From assembly GCA_019096065.1 (NCBI GenBank), contig JAGUCH010000002.1, positions 9,312,501 to 9,376,500 of the forward strand: a DNA stretch of 64,000 bases, in the 5' to 3' direction. This DNA comes from Paracyclopina nana. Its lineage: Eukaryota; Arthropoda; Copepoda; Cyclopoida; Cyclopettidae. Positions 19,030-59,100 of the stretch are shown one piece after another. The position numbers and the translations under genes were made by a program. Under the pieces are notes generated by a model that had not been told where the DNA came from, searched no databases, and worked only from the letters and a program-made list of their open reading frames with translations. Numbering within the stretch: position 1 is the first letter of the stretch; every line of letters begins with the position of its first letter.

Positions 19030-19992
19030 TCACGAGTAGCTAACCAATTCGGACATCCTGTCCACGTAAGCCTGGCAGTTTGGGAATATCTTAGGAAAGT
19101 TGGTGGACTTGGCCAAATCCGAGCCTCGTAATAAATACAGAAAGGCGAAGGCAGAGCAGTCGACCAGAGATACGCTTGAGCCCATCAAGAAGGGCTTGCT
19201 TTGCAGAAAATCTTCGACTGACTGAATGTCTGCGATGGCCGATTGCAATATTTTTTCGGGGGCCTTCATCCCCAAGCTGTGGCTGCCCGTCAAAGCCTCC
19301 ATTTTGCCTGCAACTGATCGTATCATTCTCCCCATGAGGAATCGAGTGAGCCAAGAAGAATCTTCAGGCACGAATTCCTGTCGGTGATTTTTTTATATGA
19401 GCAGTTTTTGACAGCAACCAAATGATTTTACCCACATGAAACGGCCTTTTTCGTGGACCCATCTGTTTATCAGAAACAGCCAATACAAGTGATGCTCCAG
19501 CATCATTTGAAATGCCCTTGAAATAGCCTGGTCACCAATGCTCAATTTTGTGTTCATTTTCAAGCTAAATTGAATGCTGATATCCGAAATAGCTTCATCT
19601 GTGTCATCGTAAACTCTTCCGTTGAAGAATATCCAGGGAGAAGCGGTGAAAGAAAGGTCTCCACACTGGGTGGCATATCGAATTTTGTTCACCCTTAGAA
19701 AAATCTCCATTTTTATGAAAAATGGACTATGGTACAGCCTGTTCTTTGAAGTCTTGGTAAGTGCGAGCATCACAACAGTTCGTTTTCCGTATTTTCTGGT
19801 AAGGCTTTCAAGCATTTTCCGCTTGCGTTGCTCCTGGTCAGTGTACATTTTCGAATAGGCAACCACAATTGTTGCGGAGAAAACAGCCACAGCACAGGCC
19901 ATCTTGGACGAATCATTGGTCCATTTAAGGGGCACAAAAGACCAGACAGAATTTGGCATGATGACTGAGCTTAAAGAAGCAGCAAATGTCAA
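19030..19992 (-). CDS. fax: Failed axon connections (FAX/FAXC)-like protein
   Basis: Two exons, 19992-19432 and 19377-19030, join as KGRFMW|EFVPED; 302 residues. An N-terminal hydrophobic segment (ACAVAVFSATIVVAY) could be a membrane anchor or leader. Next comes the metaxin/GST-like fold typical of FAX proteins: SPFFIKMEIFLRVNKIRYA, SPWIFFNGRVYDDTDEAISD and the helical ISRAFQMMLEHHLYWLFL block, followed by the GST_C-like half ending SVEDFLQSKPFLMGSS and FAFLYLLR. Family members were linked to axon development in Drosophila; molecular activity is unclear. The start could be 19992 or a downstream Met (MPNSVW or MACAVAV). Neighbour order and strand match the next two genes but no operon is implied. 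Confidence 0.85.
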
Positions 19993-20197: not shown

Positions 20198-20767
20198 TCA
20201 TCTTCGATTGAAGTTGCTTAAGACCAAGAAAGGGAGGGGAAAAATGCAACTCCCAAGAGAGAGAGAAGTTGCTTTTGAAGCCATCAAAGGCATTTTTTGC
20301 TGCTGCATATCGGAATGATGAAGGGATTTTCGGTACAGCGAAAATTCCTCTATAAAAATGTTCCGACTCGCCCAAAAGTAACTTGGAATTTTTCCGTTGC
20401 ATCTGTTCGACTTGCAACACATTACTCTTCCCTTTGCTCCAAAAGTGTCGGCAATAGTTTGCTCCAGTTGAGTGACATTTTTTGTGCAAGGAGCGTTCTT
20501 TGAGCTAGATACGACTCCATGTTGATAGATAACTTGCCCCGTCTCCAATTGATAGACGACACATGCCTATAAAATTCAATCTCTTTTTTGCCATATTTTC
20601 TATCGAGTGAATCGAAATCTTACATCGAATTGAAATCCGAAATTGGTTGCCAGAGGTGCAGGACATGCAGCTCGCGCCTCTCTTGGAAAATGGTTGCATT
20701 GGAAGCAAGAGATGGCCACGGCCTCTCTCACGACAAAGCAAAGCAACAGTAGCAGCCTCTTTTTCAT
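20198..20767 (-). CDS. Ly6/three-finger secreted or GPI-anchored protein
   Basis: Two exons, 20767-20624 and 20566-20198, join in phase (NFGFQFD|ACVVYQL); 170 residues. A signal peptide (MKKRLLLLLCFVVREAVA) is followed at once by SCFQCN, the opening of Ly6 domains. The cysteines CFQC, CPAP, CVVYQL and CTKNV, and the closing MCCKSNRCN, follow the three-finger pattern (CCxxxxCN). After the domain comes a ~65-residue tail with a hydrophobic end (GSCIFPLPFLVL), which might be a GPI signal, though basic residues follow it and a missed intron is possible. It lies just downstream of a BMP type II receptor whose ectodomain has the same fold class. Confidence 0.7.
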
Positions 20768-21218: not shown

Positions 21219-23250
21219 TTAAGTCGTCATTTGGAAGTTTTTGCCGTGATGATTTTTCGACTTTTTGTGACTTGAAGAAGATGAAGCGTGAATATTGTTT
21301 TGCACATAGGGAATGGGTGAGATAAGAGATGTGGCAGGACTAGGTACCTGCTGAGGCTGCCTCTGATTCTGGGGAGGCTGAAAAGGCCTCGGAGCAGGTT
21401 TGTCCTTCGCCGACCCCATCACCAAATTGCTCTCATATGAGGGTTCTTCTTTCTTGATTTTAGCTAAGTAGTTTCTCTCCAGACAGGGATTTAATCCTTG
21501 GTGAGGCTGAATTTTTGCTAGAGGCCTTTGGCCACTGAGAACGTTATTATTTTTGGCTTTGGATGCCACGTTGTTTGTATGAAGCAGAGAATTTGCTGCC
21601 GTTGTTTGGTGACTTGATGCTGCAGAATTGCTGGTCTGAGTGTTGTTGGGCAAGACAAAATCAAGGATAGGGGGACCTTGACTCACTAGCTTGTATTGAT
21701 CCCAAAGATGTTCCATTTCTCGCACCCTCTCAACAACGCACCACGAGGTGAGTCGGGCTTCGCCATCGTGATCCCAAGAATCCATGATGGTTTCTTTGAG
21801 TAATTGGATGGCTGGATTCGAATCCTTCCACACTTCGGGAAACAATGGTCGAGCCCTGTGCTTGCAAACCAGAATTTTCAACTGCTCAAGGCTAGGATTT
21901 GATCCTATTTCCTTCTCGTAGCAATGCTCAAAATGTGGCACTTCGGCACCTTGATAGAGATCTTGGCAACGTCGACTGACCTCCCAGATGATGAGACCTA
22001 AAGCGTAAATGTCGCTTTGCTTCAAAGAGCAGTTTAAGCGAGTCTCCAATAGCTCTGGAGCTTGATAACGGGCATTTCCATCATCATCATCTAGGGAGGC
22101 AAGGTCCAAGTCAAACTTCTGACTGTCGTCGACTATAGCTGCCCCAAAATTGCCAATACAGCACGTCAAATCGTGCCTAACGAAGATGCTAGAGCAGGCC
22201 AAGCTTCTGTGGCAAATGCTCAAGCGTTTCCCTTCGTCGCTTTTGATTGCTGAGTGGAGGAATGCCAAGCCTTGACTAATGCCCATCAGCATTCTGCACA
22301 GCTGACTCCAGGTAATGGTATTCCATTTTAAATACGAGTCCAACGCTCCGTTGGAAGTGTACTCGAGGCATAAGACGAGAGCGTGATCTGTGCCTTGTAT
22401 GCTGGCAAATTCGTGGGATCCATGGCATCTTAAGATGTGTGTGTTTCCAACACACTGTAAAAGATCATAAATAGCTTTTTCTTTGTAAAATTGGTTCTTT
22501 CGCATGGGGCCATACACCTTTAAACCCAATGTCATAGGAAAGTCCGGCACTTCTCTTGATTTGACAGCTTTGTAAGAGGTTGAGAAAGAGCCATGGCTGA
22601 TAATGGAGTCTATGCTGTAGTTGTCCAAGTCAACATACTGGCGATCGATCGTCATTTTAGGAAGGCTAAATGAGGCATTGTTCGACTCGAGCTGAAGAAG
22701 CCATTCGCCTTTGCATTTGGTTGATTGATCCTCGTCACTTCTTCGTGATTTGGCTCTCTTGATTTTGGTGAAAAGCATGAAAAATCCCAATGACAAAACG
22801 ATGGCTAAAGTGCTGAGCAAAACCGCTCCAGTGATTATGAGGCTAACATTTGACGGCTCTTGGGAGAAGTTTTGATTGCACATGGGCCCAGAGCAGCAGC
22901 ATGCGGATACGCGAGTTTCATTAAAATCCAAGCGACTGGCAAATTGACTGCTGTGAAAGCACAAATTCGAAGAGCTGCATTCGAGAGCGTCCTCTAGATG
23001 ACAACCTTGACTCAAGACCTCGGAGGTCTCTGCATTCCAGACAGTGTAGCAAAATGGGCAATTTTCAACTGCATTGAATGAGCCATCGCCATTTCTGCAG
23101 AAGAAGGTGAAAAGCTGTCGGTAAATATACAGGCACTAAAATCAATTAAAAGTATTACCTAAATGCACATTTGAAGAGGACTGTGTTCTCAATAGCAGCA
23201 GTAGATATGACGGCACACCCGAGGATGATAGCTAGGCTTCTCCACCTCAT
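21219..23250 (-). CDS. wit: BMP type II receptor (Wit/BMPR2-like) with degenerate kinase
   Basis: Two exons, 23250-23159 and 23094-21219, join as KCAF(AG|A)NGDG; 655 residues. Signal peptide MRWRSLAIILGCAVISTAA; cysteine-rich three-finger ectodomain ending ACCCSGPMCN; one membrane span about residues 114-139; kinase about 190-490; then a Gln/Pro/Ser-rich tail. The C-lobe is clearly BMPR2: CSLKQSDIYALGLIIWEV, RPLFPEVWKDSN, LLKETIMDSWDHDGEARLTS. The ATP-site Lys is kept (LGLKVY, about 223), but the catalytic loop reads CHRSLACSS (HRD Asp to Ser near 328, Asn also lost) and the DFG motif reads NFG (near 346). Type II receptors normally phosphorylate the GS box of type I receptors; this one should be catalytically dead or strongly impaired. 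No frameshift or stop is present. Confidence 0.93.
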
Positions 23251-25320: not shown

Positions 25321-25391
25321 GTCCTCTGTGGTCTAGAGGCAAGGCACTGGATTCCAAAACTGAGGTTCATGGGTTCGAATCCACCATGGGT
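25321..25391 (+). other. tRNA-like (Pol III box A/B) block, probably a pseudogene or SINE head
   Basis: A TGGTCTAGAGG box A-like segment and a perfect-looking box B, GGGTTCGAATCC, are spaced as in a tRNA, with a TTCCAA anticodon-loop-like stretch (Gly-TCC-like). The anticodon and acceptor stems do not pair, so a functional tRNA is unlikely. Confidence 0.4.
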
Positions 25392-34957: not shown

Positions 34958-37900
34958 ATGCAAGCCTTCGAGGCCGCCAGCTACTACGGGGGGCCCTTCT
35001 TGGACGCCATGATGGGTGAGGCCAGCCTCAAAAAGGGTAAGTTATCATTATTGTGACGCTATGAGGCTGAATTACCGTCTGATTGTTATTGTGGCTAGGC
35101 CGCAAATATTCCCTCTGCGTGGGATGCGGAGGCCAAATTCATGACCAGTACATCCTCCGGGTGGCCCCGAACCTGGAGTGGCACGCGGCCTGCCTCAAGT
35201 GCTGCGAATGCCAAATGTTTCTGGACGAAAACTGTACCTGCTTCGTGCGAGATGGCAAGACCTTCTGCAAGAAAGACTACGTTAGGTATGATGGCCTTCA
35301 ATAGTTACTTTTCTTTGCTGGTATCCCTGAGGTAATGCGTCTAGGCTTTTCAGGTTGTTCGGCACAAAGTGTGACAAGTGCTGTCGGTCCTTTGGCAAAA
35401 ACGACTTTGTGATGCGAGCCAAGAACAAGATCTTTCACTTGGAGTGCTTCCGCTGCGTGGCCTGTGAGAAGCAGTTGGTGCCTGGTGACGAGTTCGCCCT
35501 CCGGGAGGACGGCCTCTTTTGCCGCGAGGACCACCAAGAAACGGACTCGGGCCGCATCAAGGACTCTATCGAGAACAACAACACTATCCTGCAGCACCAC
35601 AACACCTCCAATAGCTCAGAAGACAACTCAGAAGGTAACGTTGAAAGAACAATTAGCCTCAGTGGACAAGAACATTCGCCAGATTTTCCAGCCCCCTGCG
35701 ATCTTTCCGACGAGGACATGAGCGTCATTGATGGCGAGCTCTCGTCCGCCTCCTCAGGGGGTGGGAAAAAGGGCCTTCTACCCGGGGGCGGTGGAGGCGG
35801 CGGAAGCCTTCTGGCCAGCAAAAAGGCTGCTGACCGAAAAAGTGCTCGAGCTAGAACTGTGTTGAGTGAAAAACAGCTCAACATTCTCAAGACGTGCTAC
35901 TCGGCCAACCCCCGTCCTGACGCCCTCATGAAGGAGCAGCTGGTTGAGATGACCGGCCTCTCGCCCAGGGTCATCCGCGTCTGGTTTCAAAACAAGCGTT
36001 GCAAGGATAAAAAGCTGCAGAATAGGCTCATGGAAAAGCAAATGCAACGAGAGAGCGTAAGTGCATTTACCATCTTTAAAGCGAGATTGAATTTCACTAT
36101 TCCTCAATCGTACTATCAAAAATCAATAATTCAAATAGGACGTGTCAGGTTTATGGTTTTTTTTGTAAAGTTGAATATCTTTTAAGACAAAATATGCCCA
36201 TGAGCGGCCACATTTAAGTCCAAACATAATCCGACAATTTGTACGCTTATTTGTGCCTTCCCTAGCAAATAATATTTTTCTTTGTCTGTTTTACCTTTGC
36301 AAATGAGTGGACCCATTCATGGAACTCAAAAAAGAAAATTCGTTTATTTTTAAAAAAAGGTCTATTATGGTTGATGCTTAATATTTGGTTGCAGCAATCC
36401 CTCAAATCGCTCAATCAGACTTTCCTATCTTTGTTGTTTAATTAGCCTTTTACCTCTTTTCACGAAGCTGTTGACATTTTCATAATAGCAGCGAAGCTGA
36501 GAATCTTGGTGAAAAGCTCAAGTTGATCTCCTTGAAAAGGCATCGTAGTGTAAAAGTGGCATCAGCATTGATAACGGGATCATTCGAGGACTCTCATAAC
36601 GCGGTAGATCTGTAACTGAGTTGTAAAACCAACAGATGGCTACGTTTCATTTTAATTCCCAGCATGCTTTTGGATGCTGGCTGGATGAAAGTTTTCCCCA
36701 TCATCCCTAAGGGGTTGCCGTAGAGTCGATGATGAAATGGCAAACAATGGACTCATGAGAAATTCACGAGTCGCGTTGATTGTTGACACTGAAAAAACCT
36801 GAATTTTTCATGGGCAGCTCAAAAAGAGTGCCTGAAAAATTCCAAACAACCAATTTGCGGATTTGGCAGGGCTTATCAACTGACAATGTTGGAAGATCAA
36901 CCCAGGAATTAACGACAGAGTTTACGGCTTAATGCCAATCCATACGGTGTAGTCGCAGAAGTAGTTACACGGGGGGATGGAGTAGTAACAGCACCTAAAA
37001 TCCTGTTGGGTATTAAAGTTTTCTCGCAGTAGTCTCACGTAAGAAAGTAAACTCGCGTTAAATTGCAACTAACGGGAGCTGGGGGGGATTGAATTCTTGT
37101 GGAAAAAAGTTAGACCAACCAGATGAAAGAAAGAAAGGGGTTTCCCCCTTCTCGGGGCTGAAGTGTTGTGGTGCGGCGGCCAACTTTTTATTCTGCACAA
37201 GGTTGTCCTTTGGGGCCAGGTCGTTTTCTCAGGGCGATTGGATTTCGCTAGGCTGCTAGCAGTTAATCGCCGCCATATCCTGCTTTTGGTTTTGCTTCTC
37301 TAAAACCACAAATGAAGAAGACGCGCGATGGACGGGAGCGGTTCAGACAGTAAAGCTATTTTACCGTTTTGGTGTGTAGCTCGGGCAAATATTTAGCTAG
37401 GGCACCATCAAACAAGCCTCTCCTACCTTGTTTGATGGTTGGGCAGATCCTTCCAGAGATATTTGATACAATGATGGTCTACATTGAGATTCGAGCCACG
37501 TAGACACCTCCATTTAGCCCCTGGCAGGGCTGACTTTTATCTCTCCTCACGATGATGTTGTGTACCTGGACTTTCTCGAGTGCTCAGCCATCCTTTTCGT
37601 CATACTCACGACGGCAATGGGGATCGATCCTTCGAAGCCCGGACTTCCGTAGCACAGCGAATCCGCCTTTTGCAAAAGGAGTAGGAACTGTTCCGGCCCA
37701 CCGATCATGCTATACGAGGAGGAGAACAATGCCCTTCGATGATGAGAGCTTTTGTGTACACTATTATTATTATTTTCCTCTGTGCATGGGAACGGCATGC
37801 TCGCGTTCTGGCTTTTAAAAAGGGGTGATGGCCTTTGGTGTTTTTCCCACAGCACAGCCGTCCTGACCTTACGGATCTGGATCCGCTGGTGGTGAGGGAG

Positions 37901-56100: not shown

Positions 56101-59100
56101 AAAAAATAGCCAGGCCTTCTGTTTCTTGCACGCACACTAACAACCGAATATAAAATCTGCACCGATTGTGTTCAAAGAGCAGTTAAAACAACATTATCCA
56201 GCACGAGAGCGATGAATGCAGCGAGACTCTGCTATTAAAGAGCCACTTCTTCTCTTTTGAAGTTGACTTCGTTTAAAAAAATCTGTGCACGAGAACGATA
56301 TCTGTGTGACATTTAGCTTGCTTTTTAACGGCTATGTTATGACCTTGGATGCTCCTATATTCGCAGGAATGCTACAAAGGCAAGAAATTCAGTTTCATCA
56401 ATGATGACGACTTGTTCACTTTAATTATCAAAAACCCCGAAACCGGTGATAGCGGCCGCTACACCTGCGTCGTCCGTGAGTGCAATGATCTCACCTGCAA
56501 AGCCTATCTGGAAGTGGAGCGTAAGCAAATATCCGAAAAACACATGCTGTTGCCATGAAATCCACACCTAGCTCTTCATACATTTCAGCCCCAGATCCGG
56601 TGTACGGCTTCGAAAAGAAGCTGGAAGTCAAGAAGCACGGACAAACAACCAAGAAAGTCAAGCTACGATGCAAGGTCGACAACCCGGATGCGAGGATCAA
56701 GTGGTACAAGGATGGCAAGGAGATCAAGCCATCGGACCAGAGGTTCTTGATCGAAAACAACAACGGCGATCTTGGCCTCACGATCCGCGAGTGTGCCCTC
56801 GAGGACGCTGGTCGCTACACCTGCAGGATCGAGGAGTTTGGCAAGGATGGAGACAACGAGTGCCACTGTGACCTCACCATCGGAGAGTTCCCCCACAAGT
56901 TCACCAACAGCCTCACAGGCAAAAACTGCGTGGAGGATGACAAGTGTGAATTCAAGATTGAGGTCGAGGAGGAGGATGCAGAAGTCAAGTGGTTCAAGGA
57001 CGGCGTTGAAATCATTCCAGATGGCAAACGGGTCGTCATTGTGAAGGAGGGCAAAAAGAGAAAGCTCGTCATTAACGGTTGCAAAATGGAGGACGCCGGA
57101 ATGATCACGGTCAAGACCAACGCAGATGAAAGCTCGGCACCCCTGGGAGTGAAAGTCAACAACAATTTCATCAAGGGCATGCGGGAGTTCAAGCAGTGCG
57201 TTGAGCGAGAGCAAATCATCTTCAACGTCCAAGTCAAGGATGTCAACGCTCCCGTCGATTTCTTTATCAACGGGGAGCCAGTCGTCGAAGATGGACGTTG
57301 TGAAATCAAGGACTTGGGAGAGGGAAAGCGACAGCTCATCATCAACAATGCCAAGATGAGCGATATGGGCACTGTCAGCGCCACCACTCCTTCCAATCGC
57401 GGGGACGAAGTGCTCGAGTCTAAGTCTGCCTTCACCGTCGTCAAGGGTGAGGAGGCACCCAAGATTGGAGACGTGGCTCCGGTCACCGGAGTGGCCAAGA
57501 AGCAGTGCAACATGACCATTCCCTACTCCGTCGAGGGAGAGAAGCAATCCGATGTGGAGATTCTTATTGAGAAGGACGGCAAACTGCTCAAGATTGGCAA
57601 GGATGTTCAGCTCACCGTGCACGGAGATCGAGTGCAGCTTGACGTTATCAACCCGAAGAGAGAGAAATCTGGCGTCTACAAGGTCATCATTAAGAATGCC
57701 CAGGGCCAGGATGAAAAGTTGATCAACGTCAACATCATGGACGTACCCACGCCGCCCCTCAATGTGTATGTTGACACGGTCTTCCAGGACAACTGTATTG
57801 TCCATTGGAGCCCTCCAAAGGATGACGGAGGCACCGAGATCAAGAAGTACATTGTGGAGCAACTCGACAACACCACTGGAAACGGAGCCTGGACAGAGTG
57901 CGCCCAAACTCCCTCTGGCAACGACCGCCAAATCAAGGTGGAGCACCTCATTCCTATGCACAAATATAGGTTTAGGGTACGCGCAGCCAATAAGATCGGG
58001 CCTTCTGATCCCACTGAAATGACCGGACCGGATATCTTGGCTAAAGATCCTTGGGGTAAGCATTGATAAGTTCACTGATAGCTAGGGCTTAGATTTGCCA
58101 ATACACATTTCGCAGACGAACCTGATCCATGCGGACAGCCAACATGCATAGATTGGGGTCCGGATTTCGCGGACCTCACTTGGGCTCCTCCTGAGTGGGA
58201 TGGCGGTGCTCCCATCACTCATTACGTCATCGAAATGAAGGAGAAGAACATGGGGCAGTGGGTGGAAGGAAAGACCTTGACAGTCCAAGAAGTGCAGCAA
58301 ATGGGCAATCTCATCAAGGGAAAGCAGGATGGACTTATCGAGGGGTGCGAATATCAGTTTAGAGTAAAAGCTGTCAACAAGGGAGGACCTAGCAAGCCCA
58401 GCCCTCCATCACTGCCAATGATTGCCAAAACGAGATTCGGTAAGCTCTGCTATTACCAAAATAGTGAAAGCAACTTTCTTCGTAAACCGTTAACTCTACT
58501 ACAGTGCCACCACACTTGATTGGAGATGGTATGCATGACATCACATTGAAAAAAGGACGTCCTATCCGATACGACCTCTGGTTTGGGGGCGAGCCCGCCC
58601 CTACGGTTGAGTGGATTCGCGAGGACCGACCTCTGGCCTCTGATGAGCATACATCCATTGAGCTTTACTCCAAGAACACCATCTACACGGAGCGTAACAC
58701 AGTTCTCAGCATTCCCAAAGTAAGCCCACAAATTAGGCATTTCGTGACATGGATAAAAAAAATCGAATATACCTTCTTTCAGGCTGATCGTGACCGTGAC
58801 ACAGGCAAATACACCATCCGGTTGACATGCGAGGCTGGCACCTTCGAAGCCTCCGGTTATGTGAACGTTTTGGACGTGCCACTGAAGCCACGTAACCTCG
58901 TGCCCGACGAGATCAGAGCCGAGCATGTCAAGCTGAGCTGGGATCCCCCATTGGATGATGGTGGCACCCCAATCACCAGCTATTTGGTCCGATACATGGA
59001 CATTGACTCGGGCGAGTGGGTGACTGCTTGCACCGTAAGAGTTTCATCTTATCACAGTCAATTAGTCTACTTCTACAACTTATGCCTCTCAATAGACCAC

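Follow-up and report, generated by a model that had tools for sequence, protein, structure and literature searches.

A pseudokinase-like BMPR2/Wit-type receptor with a preserved type I docking surface in the copepod Paracyclopina nana

The window analysed here is a 64,000-nucleotide stretch of the Paracyclopina nana genome on contig C2 of a 91.95-Mb assembly of 10 contigs, which also served as the genome searched. It contains a gene for a BMPR2/Wit-type receptor on the minus strand, running from 23250 to 21219 in two exons and encoding a full-length protein in an open frame. Its limits are exactly those drawn by the first-pass annotation, which had also called the frame open. The ATG at 23250 lies in a Kozak-like context (GCCGCCATGA), the GT donor of the intron occupies 23157–23158, and the frame of exon 2 spans 598 codons from the first ATG/GTG/TTG, or 638 from stop to stop. 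At the local composition, an open stretch of 598 codons has a chance of ~2e-15, so the gene is coding now or was until recently, although this says nothing on present selection. A check for signs of a pseudogene found neither frameshifts, internal stops nor broken splice sites. The gene is organized as follows.

23159..23250, minus strand: exon 1, with the start codon, the signal peptide and the first ectodomain cysteine (from the sequence)
23095..23158, minus strand: 64-base GT-AG intron (from the sequence)
21219..23094, minus strand: exon 2, an open frame that ends with the stop and encodes the remaining ectodomain, transmembrane segment, entire kinase-like domain and tail
22848..23094, minus strand: most of the three-finger ectodomain, which together with exon 1 has 10 cysteines including the CCC...CN box
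22770..22847, minus strand: transmembrane segment, a hydrophobic stretch placed by eye
21702..22634, minus strand: kinase-like domain (Pfam PF07714 E 3e-18, PF00069 E 1e-14; human BMPR2 kinase E 6e-60)
21222..21692, minus strand: C-terminal tail of 157 residues, delimited from the alignment

Other reading frames surround the receptor gene. Just downstream on the same strand (~20198–20767, minus) lies a small secreted Ly6/three-finger-like protein, seemingly split over two frames by an intron (the join was made by eye) and matching a CD59 model at E 0.002, below cut-off. It is followed at 19030–19992 (minus) by a Metaxin/FAXC-like protein with GST N- and C-terminal domains (PF17172, PF17171). 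On the plus strand, a LIM-homeobox-like frame at 35355–36185 and an immunoglobulin/fibronectin (titin/twitchin-like) frame at 56555–58066 were recognized by eye. A tRNA-like stretch near 25330, also picked out by eye, was rejected when ARAGORN, run with the bacterial code, found no tRNA in the window. Among four contig ends in the assembly, the C1 end and the C2 start are TTAGG-rich, which looks arthropod-like, one carries a TGGCC repeat and one has neither. A search for COX1 found none.

The kinase-like domain was compared with solved structures, which we take to be human chains, and matched BMPR2 best (E 6e-60), ahead of TGFBR2 (1e-42) and ACVR2A (2e-42). A maximum-likelihood tree of nine sequences (the receptor, four human type II kinases, the copepod's own Punt and three of its own type I kinases, with insect Wit and AMHR2 outside the set) joins the receptor to human BMPR2 with support of 98.9/98 and gives it a long branch. 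Both results uphold the BMPR2/Wit-type identity first proposed from the sequence. In this free tree, a weakly supported node (55.6/58) places TGFBR2 beside the type I receptors; the fixed tree used below for two-part branch lengths groups it with ActRII. There is no GS box ahead of the receptor kinase domain, in that PF08515 does not pass its cut-off at this gene; the profile does so at five places in the genome, namely at each of the four type I receptors and at a site on contig C6 that lacks a kinase by eye. A scan of a collection of viral contigs found no relatives of the receptor.

The extracellular and C-terminal parts are less sharply diagnostic. By phmmer, the best match of the ectodomain is that of ActRIIA (E 0.0011), with the BMPR2 ectodomain at E 0.076, and Pfam Activin_recp scores 15.9 bits (E 0.026), under the cut-off of 20.9. 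The human BMPR2 ectodomain also has ten cysteines. The initial description of an intact ectodomain is upheld by the cysteines and the CCC...CN box, but not by the Pfam score. At 157 residues, the tail is not the long BMPR2-like extension that was looked for, which is put at ~500 residues in PMC4307192. The tail cannot be aligned with that of human BMPR2, and similarity between the two did not rise above shuffled sequences, 219 of 500 shuffles reaching the score.

We aligned the catalytic motifs, a check that the first-pass annotation had proposed. Its reading of HRD as HRS, of a missing catalytic-loop Asn, of DFG as NFG and of a kept ATP-site lysine was correct at every codon. Three catalytic or Mg-binding residues are lost, and Lys and Glu of the ATP site are kept.

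22578..22601, minus strand: degraded glycine-rich loop ISHGSFST (alignment), the middle Gly alone kept and 2 of 3 glycines lost
22518..22520, minus strand: beta3 Lys (K230 of BMPR2), kept, codon AAG
22479..22481, minus strand: alphaC Glu (E243 of BMPR2), kept, codon GAA
22203..22211, minus strand: HRS for HRD, catalytic Asp lost, codon AGC at 22203–22205
22188..22190, minus strand: Ser for the Mg-binding catalytic-loop Asn, codon AGC
22143..22151, minus strand: NFG for DFG, Mg-binding Asp lost, codon AAT at 22149–22151
22053..22061, minus strand: APE motif, kept (alignment)

The losses extend beyond those first described, to the glycine loop, to the Ala of VAVK, which is replaced by Gly, and to VGT of the activation loop, which reads DGN. 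A pseudokinase is defined by the loss of at least one of the VAIK Lys, the HRD Asp and the DFG Asp. Here, the kinase fold is recognized by Pfam, two of these three residues are gone, and the catalytic Asn with them; judged by sequence only, HRS, Ser for Asn and NFG do not make an active serine/threonine kinase of the BMPR2/Wit class. These observations support the first reading of a pseudokinase-like receptor, which has lost the three residues on which catalysis and the handling of Mg-ATP depend. The activation loop (22062–22100, minus) also carries an acidic run, DDDD, directly before GNARYQAPE, where other receptors have VGT. From its sequence, this run might mimic a phosphorylated loop.

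The extent of the divergence was gauged in an alignment of ten kinase domains, in which the type I receptor L023 was counted only where its partial sequence reaches. The nine other receptors share 44 invariant columns, of which the receptor gene keeps 30 and loses 14 (R16S, V20S, A37G, V38L, F41Y, H64N, N66H, K137R, D144S, N149S, L151F, D162N, V185D and T187N). We repeated the count by leaving out one receptor at a time, excluding the window gene from the reference set and taking the invariants from the eight other receptors (43–51 columns). The left-out receptor then loses 0–7 of 43–51 columns, against 14–19 for the window gene on the same columns. Human BMPR2 loses 6/50, TGFBR2 4/48, ACVR2A 0/44 and ACVR2B 1/45; of the copepod's own receptors, Punt loses 1/45, L022 1/45, L025 7/51, L026 3/47 and L023 1/43. 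With the window gene inside the reference, the others appear in a better light and lose 0–3 of 28–33.

The losses are concentrated before the APE motif, in keeping with the early observation of a kept C-lobe. Where the five other type II kinases are invariant, the receptor loses 23/43 columns before APE and 6/34 from APE on (Fisher P 0.002); a split placed one residue before APE gives 22/42 and 7/35 (P 0.005). TGFBR2, an active kinase, served as a yardstick. On the invariants of the remaining four type II kinases, with the division placed one residue before APE, TGFBR2 loses 10/52 before and 15/50 after; the window gene loses 30 and 15 on the same columns. On the fixed tree, the branch of the receptor gene measures 2.19 before APE and 0.67 after, compared with 0.78/0.68 for TGFBR2 and 0.35/0.43 for Punt. 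The human BMPR2 branch is also longer before APE (0.71 vs 0.32 after), so the N-lobe effect may partly belong to the whole subfamily, which weakens the contrast. The receptor branch is long at 1.39, against 0.11–0.75 in the five other type II kinases. Identity to human BMPR2 follows the same division. From APE to alphaF it is 62% in both the receptor and Punt, and in alphaG–alphaI 43% and 38%, respectively. The catalytic and activation loops taken together are 28% identical in the receptor and 46% in Punt, and the N-lobe, alphaD–alphaE and catalytic/activation loops range over 27–28% and 36–46%. Branch lengths and identities together suggest that the enzyme half ran free while the C-lobe evolved as it does in a working receptor.

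A structural role for the C-lobe has been described in the human ALK2/BMPR2 complex, where the two C-lobes dock and an acidic BMPR2 surface (E464, E478, E481, D482, D485, D487 and E489, with R491–E386 behind it) meets the basic helix I of ALK2 (PMC8368100). According to the same source, the ALK2 side is formed by R490 and K493, K492 alone mattering little, and a further N-lobe contact uses F240 and K244 of BMPR2; C-lobe docking is essential for signalling and dispensable for kinase activity (PMC8368100). The corresponding elements in the copepod receptor are as follows.

21834..21836, minus strand: Glu equivalent to BMPR2 E464, kept (alignment), part of the docking surface as described in PMC8368100
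21747..21800, minus strand: alphaH and alphaH–alphaI linker, acidic docking surface LKETIMDSWDHDGEARLT, with E481 replaced by Met and the other named charged residues kept

In all, the receptor keeps 10 of the 11 BMPR2 docking residues named in PMC8368100, the exception being E481. By the same count, Punt, TGFBR2 and ACVR2A are identical to BMPR2 at 7/11, ACVR2B at 6/11, and the copepod's own type I receptors L022, L025 and L026 at 3 or 4 of 11. Set against an overall identity to BMPR2 of 108/302, retention of 10/11 has a P of 2e-4, a comparison in which some docking positions are conserved across all type II receptors compared and E386 is conserved in kinases generally. On the partner side, the helix I positions matching ALK2 R490/K492/K493, in the numbering register that we assume for ALK2, read R/K/K in all four of the copepod's type I receptors. 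At BMPR2 disease or packing positions listed in PMC8368100 and PMC6892941, the receptor keeps 12 of 14 residues; the two changes are Ser at C483 and Leu at S301, the latter shared with Punt, TGFBR2 and ACVR2A. The LTA sorting motif described for type II receptors (PMC6508650) reads LTS in the receptor, at 21744–21752 (minus).

The partners available to such a receptor were sought in a genome-wide survey of TGF-beta receptors, which had been recommended at first reading. We searched with the receptor protein (11 matches), with the copepod's own Punt kinase (31 matches, the best candidates being scored) and with ectodomain and GS-box profiles. Receptor-like matches comprise the dead BMPR2-type gene, one ActRII/Punt on contig C3 with HRD, Asn and DFG intact, and four type I receptors, L022, L023, L025 and L026, each with a GS box, HRD, Asn and DFG or DLG. 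The exons of these other receptors were joined by eye. Among the best candidates scored in the 92-Mb genome, no further gene of the BMPR2 type turned up. The suggestion that the species may have another active copy thus holds for an intact ActRII/Punt, but not for a BMPR2-type gene within the reach of the search. The ectodomain profile returned the four type I receptors and missed both the dead receptor and Punt, so further divergent ectodomains may escape the same search. Two weak matches, L028 and L029, were rejected as members of the family because they look tyrosine-kinase-like by eye.

From their L45 loops compared with human sequences, we take L022 and L023 to belong to the ALK4/5 (Babo) class, L025 to the ALK3/6 (Tkv) class and L026 to the ALK1/2 (Sax) class. 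The best nine matches of L026 are all called Activin receptor type-1 (ALK2), the top one at E 1e-78. With ALK4/5-like L45 loops in both, L022 and L023 are a possible duplication of Baboon. The genome also yields matches to the MH2 (Smad-type) domain and six to TGF-beta-type ligands, so the BMP/TGF-beta pathway as such seems present. The 15 MH2 matches lie at about nine separate places, and those in L039, L043 and L045 belong to mutually similar proteins that are not Smad-like by eye, around which there is perhaps an expanded MH2-like family.

The Sax/ALK2-type receptor L026 has an unusual residue of its own. It reads TSGSGSGMPRLIKRTLAKDITL, and when this is aligned with RTVARQITL of ALK2, the Asp lies at Gln207, as we presume the ALK2 residue to be numbered.

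L026:3209–3235 (contig C8, ~2616208–2616234): Asp at the Gln207 position, codon GAC, C8 2616223

The other three type I receptors have Gln at this position. L026 retains the serines of its GS box and could therefore remain a substrate of Punt. Bagarova in 2013 reportedly found the type II kinase dispensable for activated ALK2. In ALK2, Gln207 to Asp is a known, classic constitutively activating change (PMC10376983). The ossification that ACVR1 Q207D drives in mice needs ACVR2A and BMPR2, as stated in PMC8280795 citing Bagarova 2013. In the same account, kinase-dead ACVR2A (K219R) rescues SMAD1/5 phosphorylation by ACVR1 R206H but fails to restore signalling by the wild-type type I receptor (PMC8280795). 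By analogy with R206H, Q207D would probably signal without a type II kinase.

In published descriptions, the kinase of type II receptors is constitutively active and phosphorylates the GS box of type I receptors (PMC6892941, PMC10073696). In the explanation that we favour, and hold at even weight, the dead BMPR2/Wit-type receptor serves as a type II subunit without enzymatic activity, binding ligand on the outside and docking type I receptors on the inside; its sequence suggests that its function is probably structural and not enzymatic. Its ectodomain would bind a BMP-type ligand, the kinase-like domain would keep its fold, and the acidic C-lobe surface, whose residues are observed, would dock the basic helix I of type I kinases. 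With the catalytic Asp, the catalytic-loop Asn and the DFG Asp lost, the receptor should be unable to phosphorylate a type I GS box. It could then sit beside intact Punt as the silent half of a type II pair, or it could cluster type I receptors that depend little or not at all on being phosphorylated by type II; Asp207 Sax is a candidate for such a receptor. Expression of the receptor, formation of the complex and the signalling outcome are all presumed steps of this scheme. The first-pass annotation had left the choice between a decoy and a signalling platform. Retention of the type I docking surface speaks for an intracellular role, as platform or dominant-negative, rather than for a purely extracellular decoy, which is less likely because a decoy would have no need of the C-lobe.

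Several known systems resemble parts of this arrangement. With BMPR2/Wit, the receptor shares best match and tree position, the absence of a GS box, the C-lobe and docking residues, and a ten-cysteine CCC...CN ectodomain. Human BMPR2, however, is an active kinase that was crystallised with Mg-ADP (PMC6892941), whereas HRD, Asn and DFG are lost here. EmTRL of the fox tapeworm is likewise a natural protein, judged to derive from a type II receptor, that has lost residues needed for kinase activity, and PMC10073696 leaves it as a possible pseudokinase. It keeps 1 of 6 key residues and SMART finds no kinase domain in it (PMC10073696), whereas the copepod receptor retains Lys and Glu, is recognized by Pfam and has a well-preserved C-lobe; EmTRL is moreover a flatworm protein, and its description in PMC10073696 does not call it a BMPR2 orthologue. 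In the ACVR2A K219R/ACVR1 R206H system, as in the ACVR1 Q207D mice that need BMPR2 and ACVR2A, a type II receptor acts structurally for, or is needed by, an activated ALK2-type receptor (PMC8280795). Those are engineered or disease alleles of vertebrates, whereas here both changes are natural and are read from the genome alone. Among open-licence papers, we found no arthropod type II pseudokinase, and EmTRL was the sole type II-derived case. Type II-derived pseudokinases are thus already known; the present case differs in being recognizable as a BMPR2-type receptor and in its sharply preserved C-lobe. BAMBI lacks a kinase domain, whereas this receptor keeps a whole kinase-like domain with a preserved C-lobe. 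The likeness to BAMBI lies in its being a pseudoreceptor that modifies TGF-beta signalling (mentioned in PMC10073696).

The main rival explanation is a dominant-negative brake, in which the receptor binds ligand and takes up type II places in the tetramer, so that Punt phosphorylates fewer type I receptors and the net effect is negative. We regard it as possible, though well short of even weight. It draws on the same sequence evidence as the platform, and the kept docking surface fits it equally well; kinase-dead DAF-4 K338R makes smaller worms, a dominant-negative effect, and is described as a 'poison' receptor (PMC6508650), and the failure of kinase-dead ACVR2A to rescue wild-type type I signalling points the same way. 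It makes no use, however, of Asp207 in Sax, and since Drosophila Wit is described as a positive effector (PMC4307192), it would need a change of sign.

Early decay, in which catalysis was lost by drift since Punt suffices and the remainder is not yet broken, seems unlikely. The long branch and the intact Punt agree with it, and the intronless kinase domain would also fit a retrocopy, but a one-exon kinase domain is likewise found in the type I receptor L022. The 598 open codons, the intact splice sites and the Kozak-like start do not suggest decay, and deep divergence before APE combined with ordinary divergence after it fits poorly with the uniform pattern that decay predicts. It is also rather improbable that the receptor is Smad-independent, its tail and ectodomain being what matters, with LIMK1-type effectors recruited and the kinase-like domain serving as a spacer. 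The vertebrate BMPR2 tail does bind LIMK1 and JNK (PMC4307192), but the tail here is short and without similarity to the human one, and a spacer would not retain 10 of 11 docking residues. That the protein is an active atypical kinase compensating for its lost residues is very improbable; beta3 Lys and alphaC Glu are kept and some former pseudokinases, such as VRK3, are described as showing activity, yet the catalytic Asp, the catalytic-loop Asn, the DFG Asp and two of three loop glycines are all lost. An assembly or sequencing error, which the first-pass annotation had named for 22151 and 22203–22205 as what would overturn its reading, is scarcely credible and found no supporting evidence, as it would take at least four base changes in three key codons (two for Asp to Ser and at least one in each of the others), with further changes across the ATP site and at 14 family-invariant columns, all in an intact frame.

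The co-occurrence of a dead BMPR2-type receptor and Asp207 Sax in one genome is what a kinase-independent BMP module would look like. We put forward such a naturally evolved module, in which the only BMPR2/Wit-type receptor found in the searches keeps a docking role and is paired with Asp207 Sax, as a tentative and on balance doubtful proposal that reflects a correlation in one genome. If true, the canonical step in which type II phosphorylates type I would have been dropped in one branch of the pathway. A dead BMPR2-type receptor with a kept docking surface would be a natural separation-of-function allele, in which the structural role may persist without the enzyme. Paired with Asp207 Sax, it would provide a natural test of the scaffold model derived from the activated ALK2 alleles of fibrodysplasia ossificans progressiva.
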